Assembly: GCA_005879315.1 (NCBI GenBank)
Contig: VBLC01000054.1
Coordinates: forward strand, 1-56,380
DNA length: 56,380 nucleotides
Reading direction: 5' to 3'
Origin: Deltaproteobacteria bacterium
Lineage (GTDB): Bacteria > Myxococcota > Myxococcia > Myxococcales > 40CM-4-68-19
How positions within the stretch are numbered: the stretch's first letter is position 1; each line of letters opens with the position of its first letter. A program made the position numbers and the translations under genes. The notes under the pieces are model-generated. The model made no database searches. It was not told where the DNA came from and saw only the letters and a program-made list of their open reading frames with translations. This document shows, one piece after another, positions 8,551 to 12,748 of the stretch.

Positions 8551-10062
8551 ATGCGCGCCAGCGATCGACTGCCTCCCTCTTACAACGCGGCCCGATGGTT
8601 CGTCGGCCGGCACGTCGCCGAGGGCCGCGGAAAGAACCTCGCGCTGGTCGGCGACGGCTTCTCGCTCACCTATGCCCAGCTCGACGAGGCGGTGCGCCGC
8701 TTCGCCGGAGCCCTGCAGAAAGCGGGAGTGCACCGCGGCGACCGCGTCGCGCTCATCCAGTTCGACACGCCGCAGCTGGCCATCGGCTTCTGGGGGAGCA
8801 TCGCGGCGGGCGCGGTCGCCGTGCCGATCAACACCTTGCTCAAGCCGGCCGATCACCAGCGCATCCTCGAGGACTGCGACGCGCGCCTGGTGGTGGCCGA
8901 CCCGGCCATCGTGCCCGACGCAAAGTCGCTGGCGCCGCGCGACGCCATCTGCTGGACGCCGGGGCAGGTGGACGCGGAGCCGATCGCCGAATATGCGCCG
9001 ACCCACCGCGACGCCTTCGCCTTCTTCCTCTATTCGAGCGGAACCACCGGCGAGCCCAAAGGCGTCGTGCATCTCCAGCACGACATGCAGGTCTGCTGCG
9101 AGACCTACGGCAAGTCGGTCCTGCAGACGCGCGAGAGCGACCGCGCCTTCAGCATCGCCAAGCTCTTCTTCGCTTACGGCCTGGGGAACGCGCAGTACTT
9201 TCCCTTTCATGTTGGCGCCTCCTCCGTGCTCTTCGCGGGGCGGCCGACTCCCGAGGCCGTCTTCGAGCAAGTCCGCAAGCACCGGCCGACGCTCTTCTTC
9301 GGCGTGCCCACCGCCTACGCCATGATGCTGGCGGCGATGGACGGCGGCGCCAAGGCCGACTTCTCCTCGGTGCGCACCTGTGCCAGCGCCGGCGAGTCGC
9401 TGCCCGCAGCGCTCTTCGAGAGATGGAAGGCGAAAACGGGCCTGACCATCCTCGACGGCATCGGCTCGACCGAGATCTGCCACATCTTCCTGAGCAACTT
9501 TCCCGGCAAGGTGCGCCCCGGATCGACGGGGATCCCGGTGCCCGGGTACGATCTGCGCTTGGTGGACGACACGGGCAGCGATGTCCCCCGCGGAGAGCTT
9601 GGCGATCTTCTCGTGCGCGGCGACTCCACCATGGCCCTCTACTGGAACAAGCACGAGGCCACCAAGGCAGCGCTCAAGGGCGACTGGATCCGCACCGGCG
9701 ACAAATACTCGCAGGACAAAGACGGCTACTTCTTCCACGGCGGCCGCAGCGACGACATGCTCAAGGTGAGCGGCCAGTGGGTCTCGCCGGTCGAGGTGGA
9801 GGCGGCGCTCATCTCGCATCCCTCCGTGCTCGAGTGCGCGGTGGTCGGCGAGGTCGATTCCGACGGGCTGACCAAGCCGCACGCCTTCGTCACGCTCAGG
9901 CCCTCGGCGAGCGCGCCGGGGCTGGAAGAGTCTCTCAAGGCCTTCGCCAAGGAGAAGCTGGCCGGCTTCAAGTGCCCGCGCTGGGTGAGCGTCATCGAGG
10001 AATTGCCCAAGACGGCGACCGGCAAGATCCAGCGCTTTCTCTTGCGCGCGCGGCCGCGCTGA
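8551..10062 (+). CDS. Benzoate-CoA ligase family protein
   Basis: This adenylate-forming acyl-CoA synthetase activates an aromatic carboxylate to its CoA thioester. It has 503 residues, the usual size for BclA/BadA-type ligases. The N-terminus LPPSYNAARWFVGRHVAEGRG is diagnostic of the benzoate-CoA ligase family. The ATP-binding loop is YSSGTTGEPKG, the motif with the hinge Asp is WIRTGDKYSQDKDGYFFHGGR followed by SDDMLKVSGQWVSP, and the catalytic lysine is in PKTATGKIQRF. The ATG at 8551 is preferred over upstream in-frame starts because homologous sequence begins there and it leaves room for promoters. It is divergent from the liv operon, consistent with CoA activation of the imported acid. 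Confidence 0.92.
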   Translation: MRASDRLPPSYNAARWFVGRHVAEGRGKNLALVGDGFSLTYAQLDEAVRRFAGALQKAGVHRGDRVALIQFDTPQLAIGFWGSIAAGAVAVPINTLLKPADHQRILEDCDARLVVADPAIVPDAKSLAPRDAICWTPGQVDAEPIAEYAPTHRDAFAFFLYSSGTTGEPKGVVHLQHDMQVCCETYGKSVLQTRESDRAFSIAKLFFAYGLGNAQYFPFHVGASSVLFAGRPTPEAVFEQVRKHRPTLFFGVPTAYAMMLAAMDGGAKADFSSVRTCASAGESLPAALFERWKAKTGLTILDGIGSTEICHIFLSNFPGKVRPGSTGIPVPGYDLRLVDDTGSDVPRGELGDLLVRGDSTMALYWNKHEATKAALKGDWIRTGDKYSQDKDGYFFHGGRSDDMLKVSGQWVSPVEVEAALISHPSVLECAVVGEVDSDGLTKPHAFVTLRPSASAPGLEESLKAFAKEKLAGFKCPRWVSVIEELPKTATGKIQRFLLRARPR

Positions 10063-10070
10063 CCGATCGC

Positions 10071-10133
10071 GCGGGCTAATCCTGGCCGCAAGGCGGGCTA
10101 GCTAATCCCGGCCGCCGCAGGCGGGGTAGCTGG
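10071..10133. repeat. Degenerate tandem repeat downstream of the CoA ligase gene
   Basis: Two and a half degenerate copies of a unit starting GCGGGCTA and ending GGCCGC(C)GCA(A)G occupy 10071-10092, 10093-10120 and 10121-10133. The second copy has a 6-base insertion containing CTAGCT. The block borders the inverted-repeat-framed small gene that follows. Confidence 0.6.
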
Positions 10134-10170
10134 AATGGCTATCAATCAAGCCTGGGCGGACGCTTGAAAG

Positions 10171-10684
10171 CGGGAAAGGGAAGGGGCAGCAGGCGCGCGC
10201 CAACGCCTGCGGCGTTGTCACTTGCGCCTGCATTTGGGAAGGAAAAAGCCTGCGCCTTCGGCGCGTCTGCTTCTCGGGATTCCTATCGTTGGAGCTCTGC
10301 CCTTTGAAAAGCTTCACGCCTACCAGGAGTCGCGCAGGTTGCTCGACGCTGTGCGGGAAGCCGCCATCTCGGAGGGCCGTTTGCGGGATCAAGCGCTGCG
10401 CGCTGCGACCAGCGTTTGCCTCAATATCTCCGAGGGTGCTGGGCGCTCTGGAGCAGCCGACAAGGCGCGGGTCTACGGTATCGCCCGCGGCGAGAACTGC
10501 GAGGTTGCGGCGGCCCTGGACATCGCGCTGGCGGGAGGACTCTGTCTTGCGGAACCCGCACGCCGCGGGCTCCTCCATGCGCGGGCAGTCCACGCTTTGT
10601 TGTCGGGTCTCATCCGCAGATTCCAAATCGCCGGATGAGCCCCGAGAGCGGCGCGCGCCTGCATCCTTCCCTTTCCCTTTCCCG
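10171..10684. mobile_element. Candidate small element: IVP-type gene framed by inverted repeats
   Basis: The left end (10171-10201) and right end (10650-10684) are inverted copies of each other. The reverse complement of the left starts GGCGCGCGCCTGC and ends TTCCCTTTCCCG, as does the right end, which carries about four extra bases of CCCTTT repeat in the middle. Inside the left end lies a perfect 7-bp hairpin with a TGC loop (10201-10217). The enclosed gene encodes a four-helix-bundle protein of the type first found in 23S rRNA intervening sequences. No transposase is present and no target-site duplication was recognised, so mobility is inferred only from structure. Confidence 0.4.
10222..10638 (+). 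CDS. Four-helix-bundle protein (IVP/S23-like)
   Basis: This small protein belongs to the family named after proteins encoded in 23S rRNA intervening sequences (TIGR02436-type), related to the Avd accessory protein of retroelements. The core motif begins PFEKLHAYQESRRLLD and continues with ATSVCLNISEGAGRSG and a final pair of helices. The biochemical role of the family is unknown. The start is uncertain: TTG codons at 10222 and 10234 are in frame, but family members usually begin near the LPFEKL residues around 10297, where no ATG/GTG/TTG occurs. The 138-residue length is therefore an upper limit. It lies inside a pair of inverted repeats and has no operon partner. Confidence 0.75.
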   Translation: MRLHLGRKKPAPSARLLLGIPIVGALPFEKLHAYQESRRLLDAVREAAISEGRLRDQALRAATSVCLNISEGAGRSGAADKARVYGIARGENCEVAAALDIALAGGLCLAEPARRGLLHARAVHALLSGLIRRFQIAG

Positions 10685-10743
10685 TCCCCCTCCCCGCCGG
10701 TCGTTAATGCGCTCTAGCCAGTTAGGAGTATGCTCTTGCGACC

Positions 10744-11220
10744 GTGGACGCAGAGCTGCGCGGCTTTCTCACCAGCACTTCCTTCTTCGGCGGCCTTCCT
10801 CCCGAAATGGTCGACAAGGTGATGGGCATGCTCAAGGAGCGGCCCATCCGCAAAGGCGAGACGCTCTTCGAAGAGGGCGACAGCGGCAAGTCGATGTACA
10901 TCGTCCGCAACGGCGCCCTCATCGTCGAGCGGAAGATGCACGATGGCTCGCTCTGCCGGCTGCAGATGATGCGGCCGGGGGACTTCTTCGGCGTGACCAC
11001 GCTGATCGAGATGGAGCCGCGGCCTTTCGGCTGCGTCGCCGAGCAGGACTCGCTCCTCTACGAGCTGACCAACCTCGATCTCTACAAGCTCTACAAGGAA
11101 GACCAGAAGGGCTACATCCTCGTCCTGCAGAACATCAACCGCGAGCTGTGCCGCAGGCTGCGCAAGGCGGCTCAGCGCATCGCCGCGCTCGAGGACCAGC
11201 CGCACCAGCTCAAGAAGTAG
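10744..11220 (+). CDS. Cyclic nucleotide-binding domain protein
   Basis: This is a 158-residue single-domain protein of the CAP_ED/cNMP-binding fold. Landmarks are KGETLFEEGDSGKSMYIVRNG, the phosphate-binding cassette region PGDFFGVTTLIEMEPRPFGCVAEQD, and a C-terminal helix. Unlike Crp/Fnr proteins it has no helix-turn-helix domain, so it is not itself a DNA-binding regulator. It more likely senses a nucleotide and acts through a partner. The start is GTG at 10744. A TAGGAG sequence lies about 15 bases upstream, further away than usual. It converges on the M28 peptidase gene with one base between the stop codons. Confidence 0.87.
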   Translation: MDAELRGFLTSTSFFGGLPPEMVDKVMGMLKERPIRKGETLFEEGDSGKSMYIVRNGALIVERKMHDGSLCRLQMMRPGDFFGVTTLIEMEPRPFGCVAEQDSLLYELTNLDLYKLYKEDQKGYILVLQNINRELCRRLRKAAQRIAALEDQPHQLKK

Positions 11221-12541: not shown

Positions 12542-12594
12542 GCGGCCCCTTTTAGCGCCAATGCCTATCAGTCAGTTAGGTGCCCATTGCCCCC

Positions 12595-12708
12595 GCCGTG
12601 CTCGTGCTCCTGCTCGTATTGGTGCTCGGGGCTTGTTCTCGTTCGGGTACCCGGGGCTTGTTCGCGGGCGATGGCATTCCTCGTTACCCGAATCAGAACG
12701 AGCACGGC
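12595..12708. repeat. Imperfect palindromic element with nested direct repeats
   Basis: The ends are an 11-base perfect inverted repeat: GCCGTGCTCGT at 12595-12605 and ACGAGCACGGC at 12698-12708. The interior contains two direct copies of CGGGGCTTGTTC (12627-12638 and 12652-12663), a CGGGTACCCG palindrome between them, and a CTCGT/GCTC-rich left arm. It fills the gap between the M28 peptidase start and the next plus-strand gene, so it may form a hairpin in the leader of either transcript. It resembles a MITE-like or REP-like insertion. Confidence 0.55.
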
Positions 12709-12748
12709 TAAATTGACCAGCATTGCTTTTGGCGCAGGATGAGATTCG

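Follow-up and report, generated by a model that had tools for sequence, protein, structure and literature searches.

Intervening sequences that carry an S23/IVP ORF are known from the 23S rRNA of Coxiella and Leptospira and have been described as selfish elements; the IVP/S23 family has no known function, and its member XCC0516 is a homopentamer (PMC4990558). Mobile elements with tandem repeats have also been reported, such as BrickBuilt of Porphyromonas gingivalis, a MITE that contains a 23-bp minisatellite and shows variable target duplications, with no IVP gene reported there (PMC4596501). In addition, intergenic heptamer repeats of unexplained origin have been described in several bacteria, including TAACTGA repeats, for which a repeat-binding protein was suggested as a possible mobile element (PMC4679880), and GGGAATC repeats, which often form convergent pairs in Xanthomonas and have relatives in Nostoc (PMC4692102). 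These 7-mers resemble the repeat arms described below and were not tied to IVP in either study. Among the papers searched, none joined the term 'four helix bundle protein' with tandem or inverted repeats.

Here, we analysed a window of 56,380 nucleotides of Deltaproteobacteria bacterium DNA, in which an IVP gene is enclosed by inverted sequences. The protein belongs to the same family as that of the 23S intervening sequences, and in both the gene is enclosed in a stem formed by complementary ends; the window copy, however, sits between two protein genes, an AMP-binding (acyl-CoA ligase-type) gene and a cNMP-binding gene, and not in rRNA. The initial annotation, which had correctly placed the gene among ordinary protein genes, likened it to such intervening sequences, and this is right for the layout and not for the location. 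A literal link to 23S rRNA was rejected, as no 23S rRNA segment was found near any of the 80 IVP loci of the wider set examined below. The IVP units also differ from 23S intervening sequences in that their arms are 6-7-mer tandem repeats, and this lineage differs further in having outer tips, target duplications and, in the fullest form, two convergent genes. Taken as a whole, the locus is probably the decayed form of a non-autonomous mobile element that is dispersed in the genome; an IS4-type transposase would move this element in trans, and the IVP would act on its own element.

The IVP gene and its inverted arms in the window

The assignment of the window gene to the S23/IVP family was borne out by both profiles searched, PF05635 (E 2.8e-15, 56.9 bits against a curated cut-off of 33.8) and TIGR02436 (E 9.8e-16, 57.9 bits against a cut-off of 24). 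The coding remnant occupies 10306-10638 on the forward strand, with its stop codon at 10636-10638 and its start lost. An AF2 model (pLDDT 96.7) predicts a four-helix bundle that matches the solved IVP of Xanthomonas campestris, XCC0516 (PDB 2gsc), with a TM of 0.85. A weaker similarity was predicted to the Avd-like four-helix bundles among the reverse-transcriptase RNP chains of diversity-generating retroelements (DGRs) (TM ~0.69, E ~0.8). No relative of the protein was found in phage records, and none was confirmed in a scan of viral contigs.

The inverted sequences that had been noticed around this gene were recovered as arms of 30 nt with 80% identity (10171-10200 and 10655-10684), and the blocks they share include two perfect ones of 13 nt (10172-10184 with 10665-10677, and 10189-10201 with 10650-10662). 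Their local inverted score was 21.5, whereas 5000 random placements with the same spacing within the window gave a mean of 7.3 and a maximum that tied with it. Based on this score and the inverted-repeat comparison, the left short-repeat arm of GGGAAA type was placed at 10172-10186 on the forward strand; the same comparison placed the right arm, consisting of a hairpin-1 remnant and a GGGAAA-type repeat, at 10650-10684 on the reverse strand. The hairpin reported just inside the left end, here named hairpin 1, was also found (10189-10231, forward strand), and sequence comparison revealed the same design with another sequence in one sister copy (C36). No known RNA was detected by Rfam at 9900-10900 or in 12 related loci.

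Dispersed copies, outer tips and target duplications

When the 514-bp segment was used as query against the whole genome, most of it was recovered at nine places, alongside many shorter matches; a PF05635 search gave 16 places. The segment is present approximately 12 times, whole or as a fragment, in unrelated places and with the same ends; several copies are located at the edges of contigs, which is usual for repeats. Homology between copies extends past the GGGAAA arms to 19-bp tips, CAATGCCNRTCANTTAAGC, and the pattern of these tips matched 17 times in the genome versus twice for a reversed control. The repeats that the initial annotation took for the ends of the element are therefore internal. 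Comparison with sister copies C40, C19, C85 and C83, together with the tip pattern, placed the whole window copy on the forward strand from ~10133 to ~10712, the right limit being approximate. Its left tip, GAATGGCTATCAATCAAGC, lies at 10133-10151 (forward strand) and differs from CAATGCCNRTCANTTAAGC by three mismatches. Matching terminal inverted tips are present in the family, and the right one of the window copy, CGTTAATGCGC (10702-10712, reverse strand), is decayed when compared with the right tips of C40 and C83; no target duplication is left here (2/10).

The copies belong to a single family, in which the genes are of two types, alpha (the window copy, C19, C74, C83 and C85) and beta (C28, C40, C77 and C74), which are read inward from different ends wherever a copy shows both ends. 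Alpha copies are 82-100% identical; beta copies share 68-69% identity with the window and 90-94% with one another. The fullest copy, C74:24427-25388, contains an alpha and a beta IVP gene in convergent orientation. Solo ends and deletion forms were also observed, and both the single-gene and the gene-less copies seem to have arisen from the two-gene form by deletion, down to solo ends. By the same comparison, the window copy appears to be a single-gene decayed derivative of the alpha type and not a complete minimal unit. Of the possible minimal mobile unit proposed previously, mobility thus stands and completeness does not. No recombinase is encoded by the window element, which is therefore non-autonomous or moved by another route.

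Target duplications of 10 bp were evident at 9-10 matching positions in 5 of the 12 elements scored, the window IVP copy not being among them; the null rate for a match of at least 9 of 10 was 0.003. Complete duplications (10/10) were found at C103_74.9k in the own genome and at a Deltaproteobacterium locus (L307), and 9/10 duplications at three places of the own genome, namely C83, C28:32k and a second element in the window. At a further locus, L354, TGCCTAAGGC occurs on both sides. The second window element (12549-12735, no strand assigned) was recognised from tips, arms and target duplications: it belongs to the same tip family and contains inverted GAGCAC-type arms and no gene, with its duplications at 12549-12558 and 12726-12735 (9/10) and its tips at 12559-12580 and 12709-12725.

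Within the order, IVP genes are patchily distributed (24 of 60 genomes) and convergent IVP pairs recur in genomes G033 (four copies), G049, G028 and G043. The four G033 copies are mostly 90-97% identical and lie in different places. At one orthologous gap, G033 has a block of 1.76 kb where G035 has only ~160 bp, the repeats being absent as well, and in G043 ordinary genes occupy the gap orthologous to the G033 IVP locus. Comparison of loci with and without the element thus revealed an empty site for the IVP element of a relative, G033, rather than for one of the own genome; for the window and C40 loci, relatives showed no synteny, as gene order was not kept. The IVP pairs of G033 (L102-L105) are located inside long GGTCGC hexamer arrays, whose direction is the same on either side, in contrast to the inverted arms at other IVP loci.

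With dispersed same-end copies, 10-bp duplications in sister copies and an empty site for a related element, the mobility suggested in the initial annotation is well supported for the window's family. We also considered a domesticated host gene with a duplicated regulatory stem, which would have been multiplied by segmental duplication and not by transposition. The low dN/dS of the gene and a start-codon hairpin that looks regulatory (see below) would agree with this; however, it is contradicted by the target duplications, and the copies share nothing that we could see beyond the tips, lie in unrelated contexts and include gene-less forms. We regard this explanation as scarcely credible.

As for the mechanism, the CAATGCCNRTCANTTAAGC tips appear to resemble the end of IS4. 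Of 5426 E. coli genomes, 2542 contain that end sequence, which shows its commonness there only. The family shares with IS4-type MITEs a short size, terminal inverted tips, target duplications of ~10 bp, many copies and the lack of a transposase, and differs from them in a conserved gene that was under selection, an interior of inverted microsatellite arms and a partner insertion sequence that was not found: a profile search of the own assembly for the IS4-type transposase (PF01609, DDE_Tnp_1) gave no match. Mobilisation in trans by a putative IS4-type transposase is the best mechanism at present, albeit unproven. From the outside inward, the element comprises the CAATGCCNRTCANTTAAGC tips, inverted tandem-repeat arms, hairpin 1, hairpin 2 (see below) and the IVP gene; a DDE transposase of IS4 type would act on the tips and leave the 10-bp target duplications. 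In genomes G012 and G028 (L335, L342, L334 and L341), tips were repeatedly observed 35-140 bp from contig ends, which suggests full insertion sequences that were collapsed in assembly.

Inverted repeat arms and operon gaps across phyla

Using a canonical IVP pair as query, we collected 80 loci from genomes with canonical IVP in many phyla, including archaea. The flanks of IVP genes matched in inverted orientation at 46 of 73 loci, as compared with 5 of 178 other genes of the same loci (p 1.6e-25, a value that is overstated, as p-values in this set are, because the loci are partly related, with several from Nostoc and Rhizobiales). The mean inverted match was 22.8, against 11.0±0.4 with permuted partners, and lay far above sham positions and also above the direct orientation. 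Arms consist of tandem 6-7-mers, mostly 7-mers, with a unit that differs from locus to locus; a period of 7 or 14 was found in 31 of 34 left arms, and the two sides match inverted in 27 cases and directly in one. Cyanobacterial plasmids also have IVP genes, with plain heptamer arms in three loci (L361-L363). Inverted short-repeat arms are thus a hallmark of IVP loci, and the low complexity of part of the window repeat, previously thought to weaken the case, strengthens it instead; nor are such ends absent around other IVP genes, most of those examined having inverted arms. One IVP gene (L161:709-1572) is framed by an inverted repeat of 230 bp with 80% identity, far longer than the others.

These arms might be ordinary short-sequence repeats, with IVP genes landing or persisting in repeat-rich gaps and the inverted match arising by slippage. 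Indeed, certain genomes are rich in heptamer repeats (PMC4679880; PMC4692102), G043 contains dozens of arrays of GGTCGC type that have no IVP, and the G033 copies lie inside arrays of one direction. On the other hand, the sides match inverted and not directly, in the permutation arms match their own partner rather than arms taken from elsewhere, the other genes of the same loci rarely have such flanks, and the G035 empty site is free of repeats. We therefore consider this explanation very unlikely.

The neighbouring genes of IVP units were both in sense at 36 of 44 loci and both antisense at two, although these counts depend on a crude gene caller. In most of this co-directional set, the arms begin soon after the upstream stop codon, at a distance of between a few bases and some tens, and finish close to the downstream start. 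IVP units split nuoB-nuoC, atpG-atpD, an RND adaptor-permease pair, pyrG-yidC and a thiD-like-thiE pair. Across phyla, the general layout is thus a sense-oriented IVP gene flanked by inverted 6-7-mer arms and located in the gap from the stop codon of one gene to the start codon of the next.

Recognisable tips are absent beside the arms in most phyla examined, and neither tips nor target duplications were established in the wider set; therefore, IS4-type movement cannot be generalised. A different reading is that IVP units are themselves mobile by means of the pentamer and stem-forming arms, perhaps as RNA with the help of a reverse transcriptase acting in trans, as Avd serves DGRs, the IS4-like tips having been captured in this lineage only. 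Arms without recognisable tips, the predicted Avd-like fold and the sense orientation in operons point in this direction; yet selection on expression or operon tolerance can also give a sense bias, and the copies in the own genome fit tips with 10-bp duplications. This reading appears unlikely to us.

Apart from the trans-mobilised element that we favour for the window, we tentatively raise a broader possibility: widespread minimal selfish elements of Bacteria and Archaea may consist of a small nucleic-acid-binding IVP and two self-matching 6-7-mer arms, inserted in sense in operon gaps, with no recognisable recombinase of their own. If so, rRNA intervening sequences would be a special case, namely IVP elements whose insertion happened to hit rRNA. 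Relics of IVP elements would likewise make up a part of the unexplained heptamer repeats that many genomes contain, giving a possible origin to sequences long described without an explanation. Since IVP/S23 proteins have no known function and their intervening sequences no known route of movement, the operon layout seen across phyla, with arms that match within a locus and differ between loci, provides a test bed for both questions in culturable strains.

Hairpin 2 and the IVP protein

In sister copies C83 and C85, a second hairpin holds the ribosome site and the ATG within a stem of ~20 bp. Compared with these sisters, the window copy retains only a scar (10279-10302, forward strand, limits approximate); hairpin 2 is lost and therefore the start codon is gone, so the window gene is probably dead. 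Of 89 IVP ORFs in the order, 52 have hairpin 2, as against none of 78 outside it; it was rejected as a general IVP feature. Where present it shows covariation, with 385 of 420 cells paired versus 257 after shuffling (maximum 294) and many compensated pairs. At L030:1270-1330, hairpin 2 is symmetric: the opposite strand also has a ribosome site and an ATG, which opens a short basic ORF reading outward.

The dN/dS among copies in the own genome is mostly 0.05-0.2, and therefore the protein mattered during spread; IVP would thus have been under purifying selection while copies spread. On the model of Avd in DGRs and of rRNA intervening sequences, whose ends close a stem, we suggest that IVP may be a pentameric nucleic-acid binder acting on the arms or hairpins of its own element, where it could keep the insert tolerable in transcripts or aid its spread. 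In the alignment of the window protein (10279-10617), one helix displays Q, R, S, N and E residues that are invariant or nearly so and spaced by 3-4 residues, and the next helix carries an invariant E; this polar row looks functional.
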